A stretch of DNA of 64,000 nt from Mycolicibacterium rufum (GTDB lineage: Bacteria > Actinomycetota > Actinomycetes > Mycobacteriales > Mycobacteriaceae). The stretch lies in NCBI RefSeq assembly GCF_022374875.2, contig NZ_CP092427.2:2170001-2234000 (forward strand), given 5' to 3'. Shown piece after piece: positions 17,432 to 49,327 of the stretch. How positions within the stretch are numbered: position 1 is the stretch's first letter; the number at the start of each line of letters is the position of its first letter. Made by a program: the position numbers and the translations under genes. The notes beneath the pieces were generated by a model. That model was not told the origin of the DNA. It searched no databases and worked only from the letters and a program-made list of their open reading frames with translations.

Positions 17432-17436
17432 CAGCG

Positions 17437-17519
17437 TGGCAGGTAGTGGATTCGAACCACTGTAGGCGTAAGCCGACGGATTTACAGTCCGCTCCCATTG
17501 GCCGCTCGGGCAACCTGCC
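17437..17519 (-). tRNA. tRNA-Tyr (GTA anticodon)
   Basis: Read on the minus strand, the acceptor arms GGCAGGT and ACCTGCC pair perfectly, followed by discriminator A. The anticodon loop reads CTGTAAA, giving GTA for tyrosine. The variable arm is long (class II), as expected for bacterial tRNA-Tyr, and the T-loop GGTTCGAATCC is canonical. Total 83 nt. The CCA end is not encoded (the next base is C, then AC). Confidence 0.95.
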
Positions 17520-45010: not shown

Positions 45011-46264
45011 GTGGCCCCCGCCGACCTGCAACGCACCGTGGACGCGGTCTGGCGGATGGAGGCCGCGAAGATCGTCGCGACCTTGACCGCCGCCGTCGGA
45101 GACATCGGCCTCGCCGAGGACCTGGCCGCCGAAGCGCTCGTCGACGCGCTGACGCAGTGGCCCGAGCGCGGCGTGCCCCGCAATCCCGGGGCGTGGCTGA
45201 CCACCGTCGCCAAACGCAAGGCCGTCGACCACTGGCGCCGTCGCGACACCCTCGACGCCAAATACGCGGTGCTCGCCCGCGATCTGGAGACCGTCACCGA
45301 CCAGGCCTGGGACCCCGACCGCATCGACGACGATGTGCTGCGGCTGATCTTCATGGCGGCACACCCGAGCCTGCCAAGGGAGAGCCAGATCGCATTGACC
45401 CTGCGCCTCGTCGGCGGCCTGACCACCGAGGAGATCGCCGCCGCCTTCCTCGTCCCGAAAGCCACCGTGGCGCAACGCATCACGAGGGCCAAGAAATCGC
45501 TGGCCGGGGTGCCGTTCGAGATTCCGGACCGCTCGGATCATCCGCAGCGGCTCTCCGCGGTGCTCAGCGTCATCTATCTGGTGTTCAACGAGGGGTACTC
45601 GGCGTCGTCGGGCCAGCGCTGGATCCGCGACGGGTTGTGCAGCGAGGCGCTGCGTCTGGGCCGGGTGCTGGCGGCGCTGCTGCCCGGGGAGGCGGAGGTG
45701 GCCGGCCTGCTCGCGCTGATGGAGTTCCAGTCCTCCCGGCTGCGCGCACGCACCGAGGCAGACGGCACACCGATCCTGCTCGAGGATCAGGACCGCGGCC
45801 GCTGGGATCGTGCCGCCATCGGACGCGGAGTCGAGGCACTGCGTCGGGCATCAGAGACGTTGCAGCGCAACGGCATCGGCTGGGGGTGGTACACGTTGCA
45901 GGCCGCGCTCGCGGAGTGCCACGCCGTCGCGCCGACCGCCGCGGACACCGACTGGACCCGGATCGTGTCGCTCTACGACGCGCTGCGCCGGCTCGCCCCG
46001 TCTCCCGTCGTGGACCTCAACCGCGCGGTGGCCATCGCCATGGCCGACCCCGCGACGGGTCCCGCCGAGGCGTTGCGTCTGATCGACGACATCCGTGGCC
46101 TCGACGGTTCCTACCTGGTACCCAGCGTGCGCGGCGAACTCCTCTCCCGGATGGGCCGCCCCGGCGACGCGGCCGGCGAGTTCGACCGTGCCGCCGCACT
46201 GGCCGAGAACGAGGCCGAGCGGAAGGTGCTGGCCGACAAAGCCCGCCGCGCCCGCGCCGGCTAG
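45011..46264 (+). CDS. ECF42-type RNA polymerase sigma factor
   Basis: 417 residues from GTG 45011. Region 2 lies at the start (AEDLAAEALVDALTQWPERGVPRNPGAWLTT) and region 4 around LRLVGGLTTEEIAAAFLVPKATVAQRITRAKK. The C-terminal 230 residues are helical and TPR-like, an extension that defines ECF42 and probably replaces an anti-sigma factor. The usual DGPF partner lies 2.7 kb away at 41884. It converges with the NodS-like methyltransferase gene and shares its CTAG stop. Confidence 0.87.
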   Translation: MAPADLQRTVDAVWRMEAAKIVATLTAAVGDIGLAEDLAAEALVDALTQWPERGVPRNPGAWLTTVAKRKAVDHWRRRDTLDAKYAVLARDLETVTDQAWDPDRIDDDVLRLIFMAAHPSLPRESQIALTLRLVGGLTTEEIAAAFLVPKATVAQRITRAKKSLAGVPFEIPDRSDHPQRLSAVLSVIYLVFNEGYSASSGQRWIRDGLCSEALRLGRVLAALLPGEAEVAGLLALMEFQSSRLRARTEADGTPILLEDQDRGRWDRAAIGRGVEALRRASETLQRNGIGWGWYTLQAALAECHAVAPTAADTDWTRIVSLYDALRRLAPSPVVDLNRAVAIAMADPATGPAEALRLIDDIRGLDGSYLVPSVRGELLSRMGRPGDAAGEFDRAAALAENEAERKVLADKARRARAG

Positions 46265-46884
46265 GACCCGGGCACCGAGGTGCGTGCGGCGACCGAACGC
46301 GCGCTCGCCGTGTCGAACACATCGATGACCACGTCGTCGTCCCGGTACCCGCCGAGACGGTGCAGCCCGGACGTCTGCCCGATCACGTCGTTGGCCGCAT
46401 CGCCGGTCATCGGGTAGTCATCGACCGGGTGCCGCCAGTGCGCGGCGACCACCGTGGCCGACGGCGCGAGCCGGGGCACCTCGCGGTCGAGCACCTGACG
46501 CAGCGTCTCCGGCTGCAGGTAGTAGCACAACTCCGAGAGCACCACGAGATCGAAAGGACCGGCGGGCCAGGGCTCGTCGACCGACCCGCGGATCAACCGG
46601 ACCCGCTCGGCCACCTCCGCCGCGGCCAACCGGCGATGCGTCGCGTCCAGCGCTGCACCGCTGACGTCGGTGCTCGTCACGCGGTCACAGCGCTGCGCCA
46701 GTAGTGCGGTCAGCACACCGACCGAGCAGCCCGGCTCGAACGCGTGGCGGTAGCGGCGGTAGGGCAGCACGGCCATCGTGATGGCGTACTTGCGCTGCTC
46801 GTACCACCGCGTCCCCAGCTCCCACGGGTCGCCGGCGTCGGCGTACATGCGGTCGAAATAGGAATCGGGCAGGCGCGCGCTCAA
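46261..46884 (-). CDS. NodS-like SAM-dependent methyltransferase
   Basis: 207 residues from a TTG at 46884 that overlaps the PIG-L stop by 4 nt (TTGA). The NodS signature is clear: PDSYFDRMYADAGDPWELGTRWYEQRKY, motif I AFEPGCSVGVLTALLAQ, then TDVSGAALDATHRR and LVVLSELCYYLQP. In rhizobia, NodS N-methylates the deacetylated glucosamine of Nod factors. The last gene of a coupled run with GT2, ACAD and PIG-L genes. Confidence 0.87.
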   Translation of the reverse strand: MSARLPDSYFDRMYADAGDPWELGTRWYEQRKYAITMAVLPYRRYRHAFEPGCSVGVLTALLAQRCDRVTSTDVSGAALDATHRRLAAAEVAERVRLIRGSVDEPWPAGPFDLVVLSELCYYLQPETLRQVLDREVPRLAPSATVVAAHWRHPVDDYPMTGDAANDVIGQTSGLHRLGGYRDDDVVIDVFDTASARSVAARTSVPGS

Positions 46885-47648
46885 CAGAACGCCACCTCAC
46901 CGACGGTCAGCAGCCGGTGCAGCACGGCCGGCGGAAGTACCGGATCACCCCCGGGAACCGGTGCGGTGAACTGACTTTCGAAGCAGCGGGCCGCGCGTCG
47001 TTTCCGCTCGAGGGCCGCCGCGGTGAGGCGGGTCATGCGGGCGCGGGCCCACGGCACCGCATCGTCGCCGGGCCGAGCCCAGTGCCACATCCACACCGGG
47101 TACTCCACCAGCACCGCGCCGCACTGCTGCGCCGCCGTCGCGGCCGCCCTGCCGACCGCCTCGTGATCGGGATGGCCGTCACCCCGCCACGGCGCGGCGC
47201 ACCATGTGCCTGCCGGCTTGCCGTCGAGGATCTCGAGGAGCAGATCCACCAGACGTCCCTCGTGTGCCGCCACCGCACCGTCGGGTAGTCCCAAGCTGAT
47301 CGGCGCGTACACCCCCAGCGCCGCGGCCGCCTCGCGCAGCTCCGCCCGCCGGGTCTGCTCGAGCCGATAGCGTTGCAGCAGCGACAGTTCCGGATAGGCG
47401 GCACCCCCGTCGGTGGCCGATACGATCTGGGCGCGCACCCCTGAGTCCGCCAGCAGCGCCGCCGTCGCGCCGAAACCCAGTGTCTCGTCGTCGGGGTGGG
47501 CGCCGACGACCACCAGTTCCGGGCACTCCGCGAGGTCGAGGTCCGGCAGCTGCAGGCCTGCGTCCACCCACGTCTGCGTCGGGGTCCCGCCCTCGGGGAC
47601 GGGCTGCGCCGACAGCCGTGCCCCGTTGCCGACCTGCGCGGCCGTCAC
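46881..47648 (-). CDS. PIG-L family N-acetylglucosaminyl deacetylase-like protein
   Basis: 255 residues from GTG 47648, overlapping the previous stop by 4 nt (GTGA). The zinc-site motif AHPDDE is followed by the second ligand segment GDGHPDHEAVG. MshB and Mca belong to this family, but the N-terminal tail (TPTQTWVDAGLQLPDLDL) does not match either. It should remove an N-acetyl group from a sugar. Context with a GT2 and a NodS-like methyltransferase points to a glycan or glycolipid substrate. Confidence 0.87.
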   Translation of the reverse strand: MTAAQVGNGARLSAQPVPEGGTPTQTWVDAGLQLPDLDLAECPELVVVGAHPDDETLGFGATAALLADSGVRAQIVSATDGGAAYPELSLLQRYRLEQTRRAELREAAAALGVYAPISLGLPDGAVAAHEGRLVDLLLEILDGKPAGTWCAAPWRGDGHPDHEAVGRAAATAAQQCGAVLVEYPVWMWHWARPGDDAVPWARARMTRLTAAALERKRRAARCFESQFTAPVPGGDPVLPPAVLHRLLTVGEVAFC

Positions 47649-48586
47649 GCGGACGCCCCGGCCAGCTCGCCCAGCCGTTGCAGGTCGCGCTCGGCGTGGC
47701 TCTGCCGCACGTAGACGGTCAGATCGGCCACCCGTTGGGCATGCTCGGCGTCCAGGCACAGCGGGGCGGGTCCGAGCGCGCGTCCCGTCCGGTCGACGGC
47801 TTCGGCCACCGCCGTCTCGACCACGGCGCGGGCCCTGCGGGCGAGCAGCTCCGCGCGGCCGGTGCGGTTGCCGGGATCCGCGTCGACCTCGGCGGCGACC
47901 GTGGCCAGCGTCGCGGCCGCGGCGGTCAGGGCGGCGTCGACAGCGCCGAGGTGCGCCAGCGCGTGCGCGTCGGCCTTCCCGGCGGCCGCCCGCGCGTAGA
48001 GCGGGGCCGCCACCGCCCGCGCGCCGCCGAGCCAGCACGCCGCCACCCCGGCCGCGCCGTGCCAGAATCCCGGCCGCGTCAGGTAGTCACCGGGAGCGCC
48101 GACGGCGACCGCCGGGGTCTCGTCGAACTGCACCGATCGCGTGTCGGACCCGGCCATGCCGGTGTTGTGCCACGCGCTGGGTAGCGGCCGCACCCCGGGC
48201 GCATCGAGAGCGACGGCGAACAGGCCGCGCTGGCCGCCCGGCAGCTGCGCGGTCACCAGGGCGTGCGAGCACAGACCAGCCCCGGAGCACCACACCTTGG
48301 TGCCGGTCACCCGGACCGCATCGTTGAGCTCGGTGGCGCACAGCGCGGTGTCGCCCGACTCGGCGGCCCACACCCCCCACCACTGACCCGGCTGCGGGCG
48401 GGGCCCGCCGAGCTCGGCGAGGATCGCGACCGCATCGGCGTGGGCCTCGGCGAGCCGCCCGGCCGTGACGTCGACCTCGGCCAGAGCGGCCAGCCGCTGC
48501 CAGCGCAGCACGGTGGCACCGTGGCCCGGCAGCGGCAGATCCAGATCACCGGAGGACAACCAGCGTTCGACAAGCGCCGGCGTCAC
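47645..48586 (-). CDS. Acyl-CoA dehydrogenase-fold protein (short form)
   Basis: 313 residues from GTG 48586, 4-nt overlap with GT2. About 60-70 residues shorter than a normal ACAD, mostly at the N-terminus. The middle beta domain (GVWAAESGDTAL, VTGTKVWCSGAGLCSHALVTAQL, GMAGSDTRSVQFDETP) and the C-terminal helices (AVDRTGRALGPAPLCLDAEHAQRVADL) are present. Whether the catalytic Glu is kept could not be settled by eye. ACAD-fold enzymes can also act as flavin monooxygenases on amino sugars, an option in this operon. Confidence 0.8.
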   Translation of the reverse strand: MTPALVERWLSSGDLDLPLPGHGATVLRWQRLAALAEVDVTAGRLAEAHADAVAILAELGGPRPQPGQWWGVWAAESGDTALCATELNDAVRVTGTKVWCSGAGLCSHALVTAQLPGGQRGLFAVALDAPGVRPLPSAWHNTGMAGSDTRSVQFDETPAVAVGAPGDYLTRPGFWHGAAGVAACWLGGARAVAAPLYARAAAGKADAHALAHLGAVDAALTAAAATLATVAAEVDADPGNRTGRAELLARRARAVVETAVAEAVDRTGRALGPAPLCLDAEHAQRVADLTVYVRQSHAERDLQRLGELAGASA

Positions 48587-49284
48587 GAGGCGGCTTTTCG
48601 CGACAGCCCCCTGAGGTGGTCGGCGAATCCGCCCGGGGCACGCCCCTCGGCGCGATCGGAGGTCGCCACCGACAGGCCGCTGTCGCGGTGGATCCACCGC
48701 CCGGCGGCGGTGAAGCGCTCGACCAGCTCGACGTCCTCGCCGCTCGCCAGCGGGCGGAATCCCCCGACCGCCCAGTACGCGCCTGCCCGGAAGCCCATGT
48801 TGGCGCCGTGCACGTGCCGGTGCCCGCCCCGCCCGGACCGGTAGCCGCGCAGATAGCGGCGGGCCACCGCCGCGGGGAAGTTCCGCCACGACGGCACCCG
48901 CACCACCCCGAGCACCATGTCGGCGCCCGGCGCCGTCATCCGGACCAACCAGTCGGCGTCGACCGCGCTGTCGGCGTCGGTGGTCGCGTACCAGGTCTGC
49001 ATCCCGTCGTCGTAGAGGCCGCGCGCGTAGGCGAACCCCGCCGCCCGCGCCGCACCCACATTGCCCGCGTCGACCGACACGAAGTGCACGTCCGGTCCGA
49101 ACTGCCCGGCCAGCATCTCGCTGCCGTCGTCGCAGGAATCGAGCACCACGACGGTGAGCACCGGAACGGAGACACACAGCGCCGCCGTCGCGAGCGCGCG
49201 CAGGCAGCCGGGCAGGTGATCGGCCTCGTTGTGCGCGGGGACCACGACGACGATCTGGAGTGGGAACGCCTCGCCAATGGGCAT
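48583..49284 (-). CDS. Family 2 glycosyltransferase
   Basis: 233 residues from ATG 49284. GT-A fold: VVVPAHNEADHLPGCLRAL at the start, DSCDDGS, the DxD-type site in TTDADSAVDADWL, and FRPLASGEDVELVERF near the acceptor side. No transmembrane helix, so it is cytosolic or peripheral. First gene of the coupled run GT2, ACAD, PIG-L, NodS; the acceptor is unknown. 43 nt separate it from the divergent HAD gene, leaving a very short shared promoter. Confidence 0.87.
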   Translation of the reverse strand: MPIGEAFPLQIVVVVPAHNEADHLPGCLRALATAALCVSVPVLTVVVLDSCDDGSEMLAGQFGPDVHFVSVDAGNVGAARAAGFAYARGLYDDGMQTWYATTDADSAVDADWLVRMTAPGADMVLGVVRVPSWRNFPAAVARRYLRGYRSGRGGHRHVHGANMGFRAGAYWAVGGFRPLASGEDVELVERFTAAGRWIHRDSGLSVATSDRAEGRAPGGFADHLRGLSRKAAS

Positions 49285-49327
49285 ACCGGTTAGTTAGCCA
49301 ATCAGCGAAGTTTTCACACCTGGCACG

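Follow-up and report, generated by a model that had tools for sequence, protein, structure and literature searches.

Structure of the operon

The window, i.e., the whole stretch of 64,000 nucleotides of the Mycolicibacterium rufum genome analysed here (contig NZ_CP092427.2, positions 2,170,001 to 2,234,000), contains four genes on the minus strand at 46261..49284, in the order family 2 glycosyltransferase (GT2), acyl-CoA dehydrogenase (ACAD)-fold enzyme, PIG-L deacetylase and NodS-like methyltransferase. The features of the locus are as follows (positions of the window):

49295..49319, minus strand: candidate SigF-like promoter 10 nt ahead of the GT2 start codon, GTGT-N16-GGCTA, -35 element at 49316-49319, -10 element at 49295-49299
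49284-48583, minus strand: GT2, family 2 glycosyltransferase of 233 aa with one GT-A domain; first gene of the operon
48586-48583, minus strand: GTGA stop/start overlap of the GT2 and ACAD genes
48586-47645, minus strand: ACAD-fold flavoprotein-like enzyme, 313 aa, GTG start
47648-47645, minus strand: GTGA stop/start overlap of the ACAD and PIG-L genes
47648-46881, minus strand: PIG-L (LmbE-like) N-deacetylase, 255 aa, GTG start; PF02585, 2.8e-25
46884-46881, minus strand: TTGA stop/start overlap of the PIG-L and NodS-like genes
46884-46261, minus strand: NodS-like SAM methyltransferase, 207 aa, TTG start; PF05401, 1.4e-12

The three consecutive 4-nt overlaps, GTGA, GTGA and TTGA, had been proposed in an earlier sequence-only reading of this DNA and were confirmed on the minus strand. 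The families assigned there from motifs agree with Pfam for all four products: PF00535 for GT2 (49.6 bits, cut-off 23.3), PF02770 for the ACAD-like protein (35.0 bits, cut-off 33.3; the sole ACAD domain reported), PF02585 for PIG-L (89.7 bits, cut-off 28.2) and PF05401 for the NodS-like protein (48.3 bits, cut-off 24).

Distribution and conservation of the gene set

The set is present in Actinomycetota, Pseudomonadota and Deinococcota, a range beyond actinobacteria that the earlier reading missed. The loci kept were the best 80 of 399, with close relatives carrying most of the weight. All four genes were found in 61 of the 72 loci that were identified via the ACAD gene alone and had enough contig on either side, three genes in 4, two in 2, and the ACAD gene without the other three in 5, which a strict four-step pathway leaves unexplained.

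The gene order varies, including the position of GT2 in the operons of different lineages, but the set stays clustered and the in-frame overlaps are kept. In loci L001-L108, a sample that contains close relatives and counts a few species more than once, adjacent same-strand pairs no more than 200 nt apart have the NTGA overlap in 52/53 GT2-ACAD, 69/88 ACAD-PIG-L, 73/84 PIG-L-NodS and 27/33 NodS-GT2 pairs; two of the 11 PIG-L-NodS pairs lacking it are fused, and an ACAD-GT2 fusion protein (P0109) is present in the collection. Of 219 Pseudomonadota genomes, 19, the chosen centre among them, have a member of the ACAD family; a NodS-like gene lies within 4 kb in 18 of these 19, and 18 of 25 NodS-like matches are located within 4 kb of an ACAD gene. 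In mycobacterial genomes with a strong GT2 match (n = 69), PIG-L lies within 3 kb in all 58 with a listed location, and the genus sample of 396 genomes includes 187 with PIG-L matches of the operon type, divergent copies counted.

Since in-frame NTGA overlaps recur across loci, the linkage is not accidental, and chance adjacency of the four genes is ruled out by these overlaps together with the co-location in mycobacteria and Pseudomonadota. Scattering of the four genes, named in the earlier reading as grounds to refute it, was not seen: the genes do not stand apart in most of the genomes examined. No description of the set was found among the literature matches listed, and it is apparently undescribed.

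Enzymes encoded by the operon

The GT2 protein contains PF00535 and the D, DxD and ED motifs of its family, and its predicted model is a single GT-A domain. Its fold matches favour no single donor, taking in enzymes that use GDP-fucose, UDP-GlcNAc, UDP-GlcA and others; the best is WrtF, a fucosyltransferase solved with oligosaccharide acceptors, and polyprenyl-phosphate sugar transferases are among the profile matches. The fold does not reveal the donor, because tied or near matches use differing ones. In the Nod-like GlcNAc transfer proposed earlier, GlcNAc was an assumption. A hydrophobic 19-residue segment above 1.9 occurs in 29 of 95 GT2 members, including that of the window, and rarely in the other three families (1/115, 7/99 and 0/96). 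In the predicted model of the window protein this stretch sits in a core helix and strand, and the enzyme is probably soluble.

PIG-L contains the HPDD and HPDH zinc/catalytic motifs, and its residues H51, D53, D54, E55, D157, H159, D161 and H162 are each kept in at least 98 of 99 sequences. The catalytic motifs of GT2, PIG-L and the NodS-like protein are intact, and the expectation of intact active sites in the last two was upheld by sequence alignment rather than by structures. The window PIG-L shares the zinc motif and family with MshB, BshB and diacetylchitobiose deacetylase (8bgn, 4e-11; 1uan, 4e-9; MshB 1q74, 3e-5), but it falls under every NCBIfam cut-off listed: 35.7 bits for MshB (cut-off 224.35), 56.4 for BshB1 (cut-off 182.5) and 42.3 for a third equivalog (cut-off 195.25). 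Identity as a mycothiol or bacillithiol enzyme was rejected on these scores. In contrast to MshB, BshB and diacetylchitobiose deacetylase, PIG-L of the operon has the additional conserved residues W186 (99/99) and W188-H189-W190 (92-93 of 97-98).

The methyltransferase belongs to the NodS superfamily (PF05401) and is related to NodS (3ofj, E 3.9e-9), but it scores 59.1 bits against the cut-off of 300 for NodS proper (NCBIfam NF041650). A solved relative is 4isc_A (1.5e-37), named 'Methyltransferase' without an assigned function; over the stretch shown, the NodS-like proteins encoded at nine Pseudomonas loci are 56-65% identical to it, and 4isc_A is apparently a solved member of the operon's family.

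With rhizobial NodC, NodB and NodS the operon would share the proposed chemistry, namely, amino-sugar transfer, N-deacetylation and N-methylation. Unlike the Nod-factor set, the operon has a GT2 that is a bare GT-A domain, a deacetylase that is PIG-L by Pfam and not of the NodB type, that of polysaccharide deacetylases, as well as an ACAD-fold enzyme and a stress context. By Pfam, neither NodA, an exporter nor a NodB-type deacetylase was found among the four genes and the six window neighbours scanned. Membership in the Nod-factor pathway was rejected on the absence of NodB-type deacetylase and NodA from these ten genes and on the NodS score, and the likeness is one of chemistry, by analogy.

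The ACAD-like protein has a nearly complete ACAD fold with the PF02770 middle domain. An earlier proposal made it an amine oxidase resembling the nitrososynthases, which act on amino sugars. The fold is indeed the same as in KijD3, DnmZ and 3mxl, but the profile matches to the flavin monooxygenases TdsC (3.2e-10) and DszC (1.2e-9) are stronger than those to the nitrososynthases 3mxl (7.7e-6) and DnmZ (5.1e-4); by profile the protein is nearer to the DszC/TdsC type, and the nitrososynthase assignment is not favoured. Comparison with KijD3-type structures gave the shared fold without separating the classes: in Foldseek, DnmZ, 3mxl and KijD3 ranked 7, 8 and 28, and nitrososynthases, present in that list, are absent among the 50 VIA matches listed. 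Identity to DszC, TdsC and other ACAD-fold flavin monooxygenases is about 18-21%, and the N-terminal region of the window protein is shorter. S101 aligns with DszC Ser163 in the profile alignment, whereas DszC His92 and Tyr96, both active-site residues, are unmatched, the window protein having R44 and A48 there. The invariant R294 and the near-invariant Q295 and H297 lie near DszC His391 by aligned range only, His391 being outside the profile alignment.

Promoter-like element and gene neighbourhoods

Of 53 dereplicated mycobacterial loci, 44 contain the element GT[GT]T-N15-17-GG[GC][AT]A, against a mean of 0.5 and a maximum of 3 in shuffles, and 30 contain GTGT-N15-17-GGCTA (shuffles 0.05). 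The published mycobacterial SigF consensus, GTTT-N14-19-GGGTA, occurs in its strict form in 2/53 loci and GTTT-N15-17-GGGNA in 12/53; the -10 element of the window, GGCTA, differs from the published GGGTA. Judging from these motifs, the operon may be controlled by SigF in the window species. According to one report (PMC4694148), M. smegmatis MSMEG_1097 is a strongly SigF-dependent GT2 gene with GTGT-N15-GGGTT 11 bp before its start; the window GT2 is a candidate, not an established, counterpart. Sites for alphaproteobacterial EcfG (GGAAC-N16-18-CGTT) gave no clear signal: the 26 case loci have 11 and the 19 control loci 2, but only that of locus L196 plausibly lies just upstream of the set. 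An EcfG promoter is not claimed.

Genes of trehalose metabolism and catalases adjoin the set in several lineages. In one Pseudomonas locus (L184) the set lies inside a trehalose/alpha-glucan cluster, between maltokinase/GlgB-type genes and isoamylase-type, GH77 and alpha-amylase-family genes. It is flanked by OtsAB and catalase in Acinetobacter and is near GlgE and catalase in Cupriavidus. The Sulfitobacter and Novosphingobium sets have a catalase nearby, the Paraburkholderia set a gene of the catalase family. Of 138 loci, 20 have a long catalase, identical or near-identical loci being among these. The drawn Pseudomonadota sample contains 3 catalases against 0.146 expected (P 5e-4). Stress markers, from a list picked after the annotated neighbours had been seen, occur in 7 of 19 Pseudomonadota regions and 0 of 19 controls (p 0.004), and 12 of the 19 contain none of the listed markers. 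Catalase is near the set in 7/31 mycobacterial, 3/41 other actinobacterial and 0/10 Pseudomonas/Luteimonas loci, and is absent from 4 of 9 plasmid regions inspected. In the window genome both catalases are more than 1 Mb from the operon, and the six window neighbours scanned include no recognised stress gene except an ECF sigma factor. Neighbour counts of the gene caller, which overlooked genes in some loci, are rough and include false ORFs; the neighbour-family tally covers 95 of 240 called neighbour proteins and has no control.

The conserved promoter-like element and the trehalose/catalase neighbours are context new here, overlooked in the sequence-only reading. With the spread beyond actinobacteria, they favour a stress metabolite over an envelope glycolipid specific to one taxon.

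Possible pathway and its alternatives

The envelope glycolipid, or a modified amino-sugar surface glycan, was the product first proposed for the operon. Of that glycan-tailoring pathway, the coherent, conserved operon with its intact GT2, PIG-L and NodS-like motifs stands; the GlcNAc donor was assumed, and the nitrososynthase step has lost ground. Tailoring of the envelope is consistent with the polyprenyl-phosphate sugar transferases and WrtF among the GT2 relatives and with extra glycosyltransferase genes near some loci, e.g., Novosphingobium L117 (a GT4 cluster occurs in 19/138 loci), but we regard it as unlikely: the three phyla share the set despite differing envelopes, the conserved four include no flippase, polymerase, acyltransferase or exporter, and GT2 has no domain besides GT-A.

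A pathway for a thiol or redox cofactor, with glycosyl transfer, PIG-L deacetylation and then tailoring as for mycothiol or bacillithiol, would suit the deacetylase type (BshB1 56 bits, MshB 36 bits) and the catalase neighbours. It is improbable, given scores far below the NCBIfam cut-offs, a set without a cysteine ligase, and the fact that mycobacteria already make mycothiol. No more credible is detoxification or salvage, in which the enzymes would act under stress on damaged glycosides or amines, degrading or mending them instead of making a product. The stress-gene neighbourhoods, the amidase Mca among PIG-L relatives (27 bits), the catabolic roles also known for flavin monooxygenases and ACADs, and the genomes keeping ACAD alone speak for it; however, no glycosidase is among the four by Pfam, and in-frame coupling of a nucleotide-sugar transferase with a SAM methyltransferase is more often a mark of synthesis.

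The reading we prefer, to which we give about an even chance, is that the four genes form one operon, translationally coupled and induced by stress, whose enzymes make a soluble amino-sugar conjugate that is N-deacetylated, N-methylated and flavin-oxidised. We infer its donor, acceptor, product, order of steps, type of oxidation and role as follows. A small soluble acceptor would receive an N-acetylated amino sugar through GT2, the most likely donor being of the nucleotide-GlcNAc type. PIG-L, a zinc enzyme, would take off the N-acetyl group, and the amine so exposed would be N-methylated by the NodS-like enzyme. The ACAD-fold flavoprotein could oxidise the product with reduced flavin and O2, as DszC/TdsC would, or act as a dehydrogenase. 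The product may help cells to survive general stress or drying, in concert with trehalose and catalase.

A narrower version, which we consider a long shot, is a cross-phylum general-stress metabolite: a soluble N-methylated amino-sugar conjugate on whose nitrogen the ACAD-fold flavoenzyme would place a hydroxyl group, giving a hydroxylamine or nitrone. Made in drying cells alongside trehalose and catalase, it would scavenge radicals in the cytosol, act as a compatible solute, or both. If one conserved stress compound is made, a survival metabolite common among bacteria would so far have gone unnoticed, and an apparent SigF-type operon of many mycobacteria would, if the reading is true, obtain a function. 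The four enzymes are small and open to direct testing.

Organization of the operon

The four-gene chain and the four family assignments of the sequence-only reading were borne out: the genes follow one another head to tail through the overlaps GTGA, GTGA and TTGA, in that order, and every protein scores above its Pfam cut-off. Judged by the organisms that carry the closest ACAD relatives, the window comes from a Mycobacterium/Mycolicibacterium genome. A HAD hydrolase gene is located upstream of the set in divergent orientation. CTAG at 46261-46264 represents the bases common to the stop codons of the NodS-like gene and of the ECF sigma factor gene downstream.

Genes of the set and other features of the window
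First gene, minus strand: family 2 glycosyltransferase (GT2), 233 residues
Second gene, minus strand: acyl-CoA dehydrogenase-fold protein (ACAD), 313 residues
Third gene, minus strand: PIG-L protein, 255 residues
Fourth gene, minus strand: NodS-like methyltransferase, 207 residues
44933-46264, plus strand: ECF sigma factor gene with DUF6596 domain, downstream of the set, convergent with the NodS-like gene
17436-17519, minus strand: tRNA-Tyr gene, also present in the window

The order GT2-ACAD-PIGL-NodS is found mostly in mycobacteria, Rhodococcus and Gordonia amicalis, and the order ACAD-PIGL-NodS-GT2 in Streptomyces, Actinoplanes relatives, Pseudomonas and Acinetobacter; some mycobacteria possess a diverged second version, arranged in the latter order (loci L148, L150, L151 and L152). 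Coupling is kept across lineages while gene order varies, in-frame NTGA overlaps joining 52/53 adjacent GT2-ACAD, 69/88 ACAD-PIGL, 73/84 PIGL-NodS and 27/33 NodS-GT2 pairs. A fused ACAD-GT2 protein (P0109) is present in the protein collection. A second PIG-L gene lies 3' of GT2 in six Pseudomonas loci (L097, L099, L101, L102, L103 and L107); locus L185 contains two PIG-L genes, with GT2 not recognised there.

Co-occurrence of the four families

Of 41 genomes from the genus and the order, 30 yielded an ACAD relative, in two of them (G030 and G016) only a weak one. A scan of genomes with the ACAD alignment provided the locus sample, the best 80 of 399 relatives, of which the 72 with ACAD flanked on both sides by 3.5 kb or more of contig were scored for linkage. 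All four families occur within 6 kb in 61 of these 72 loci; three families were found in four, two families in two, and ACAD alone in five.

In the genus samples, GT2 matches were detected in 75/178 genomes and PIG-L matches in 187/396. Where the GT2 match is strong (69 genomes; six with weaker matches were left out), PIG-L lies within 3 kb of GT2 in at least 58 (58/58 among the positions listed); of the remaining 11, nine contain a PIG-L match and two none.

In 219 Pseudomonadota genomes, drawn around one Pseudomonas picked for carrying the set, ACAD was found in 19 and a NodS-like match in 25, both being present no more than 4 kb apart in 18. The other seven NodS-like matches (G356, G269, G233, G249, G320, G241 and G407) are weaker, belong to genomes without an ACAD match and lie within open frames of 880-1218 residues, possibly encoding multi-domain proteins.

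Among nine plasmid regions picked by hand from search matches, all four families are represented in those of Acinetobacter, Pandoraea (with GT2 as two fragments), Sulfitobacter, Kitasatospora, Deinococcus sp. NW-56 (GT2 on the opposite strand) and Novosphingobium. PIG-L is separated in Cupriavidus, GT2 was not recognised in D. radiodurans, and Paraburkholderia contains the NodS-like and GT2 genes only.

Promoter-like element upstream of GT2

A strongly conserved promoter-like element is clearly present 5' of GT2 in mycobacteria, in the form GTTT-N15-17-GGG[AC]A, carried mostly by slow-growing species, or GTGT-N15-17-GGCTA, as in the window. The pattern, composed after viewing the sequences, matches 44 of 53 mycobacterial loci (dereplicated from 68), compared with a mean of 0.5 and a maximum of 3 in 300 dinucleotide shuffles; among the regions preceding ACAD, PIGL and NodS, matches number 0/53, 1/50 and 0/29, respectively. 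GTGT-N15-17-GGCTA occurs in 30/53 loci (shuffles 0.05), GTTT-N15-17-GGGNA in 12/53 (0.16) and the strict published SigF consensus GTTT-N14-19-GGGTA in only 2/53 (0.05). Conservation of the element is thus clear, with SigF as its likely but unproven user.

A published M. smegmatis sigF regulon (PMC4694148) includes MSMEG_1097, 'glycosyl transferase, group 2', with reductions of 5.6 and 5.0 log2 units and a GTGT-N15-GGGTT site located 11 bp ahead of its start. This layout closely resembles that of the window; MSMEG_1097 may or may not be the same GT2.

Neighbouring genes

In Pseudomonas locus L184 (the L099 locus), maltokinase-type and GlgB genes flank the set on one side, beyond an autotransporter gene and an endonuclease/phosphatase-family gene; the opposite flank carries isoamylase-type, alpha-amylase-family, GH77 and DUF3459 amylase genes. 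The domains may be read as a TreS/TreY/TreZ trehalose cluster, placing the set within trehalose/alpha-glucan genes. Among the plasmid regions, OtsAB and catalase were found near the set in Acinetobacter, GlgE and catalase in Cupriavidus, catalase in Sulfitobacter and Novosphingobium (the latter also with Ku) and a catalase-family gene in Paraburkholderia; catalase is absent from those of Pandoraea, both Deinococcus and Kitasatospora.

Stress markers picked from the plasmid-region annotations (catalase, OtsAB, DUF421, CsbD, PA2169-type, PRC-barrel and Ku) were found in 7/19 case versus 0/19 control regions of the Pseudomonadota sample, the controls coming from 13 of the case genomes (Fisher one-sided p 0.004); three other neighbour proteins, of 44 queries in all, each matched one control region. 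This sample contains 38 catalases in 95.5 Mb, hence 0.146 expected in the case regions; three were observed. A long catalase is located near the set in 20/138 loci, close and repeated loci included.

Near the set, some mycobacterial loci (L031, L033 and L040 among them) carry genes for CheB and CheR-PAS together with a STAS-like gene that scores just under its Pfam cut-off, and several also have a long catalase nearby; these loci resemble stress-signalling islands. Both catalase genes of the window genome are remote from the set, and no stress enzyme was found among the six window neighbours scanned, so the stress link of the window rests on the promoter.

Putative pathway

Families and motifs of the four enzymes are established at the sequence level; donor, acceptor, step order and product are inferred. 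In the simplest order, GT2 would act before PIG-L, followed by the NodS-like and ACAD-like enzymes, yielding a soluble conjugate bearing an N-methylated and oxidised amino sugar. An envelope glycolipid is a rather unlikely product of the set; a thiol-type cofactor pathway appears quite improbable, and the same holds for salvage or detoxification. The soluble conjugate is the preferred product.

No description of the four-gene set was found among the papers listed by a search of mostly open-access literature. The component families are already known; what looks new is the combination of the four, its wide distribution and the stress setting.

Lone and damaged copies

In the five loci with ACAD alone (L037, L040, L044, L074 and L096), the ACAD-like gene is intact and no GT2, PIG-L or NodS-like gene was detected in the locus; the lone ACAD may have its own use, or ACAD may decay last. 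Among other loci, L034 retains a GT2 remnant of 27 residues, the NodS-like gene of L039 is split by ~4 kb, and ACAD is truncated in L075.
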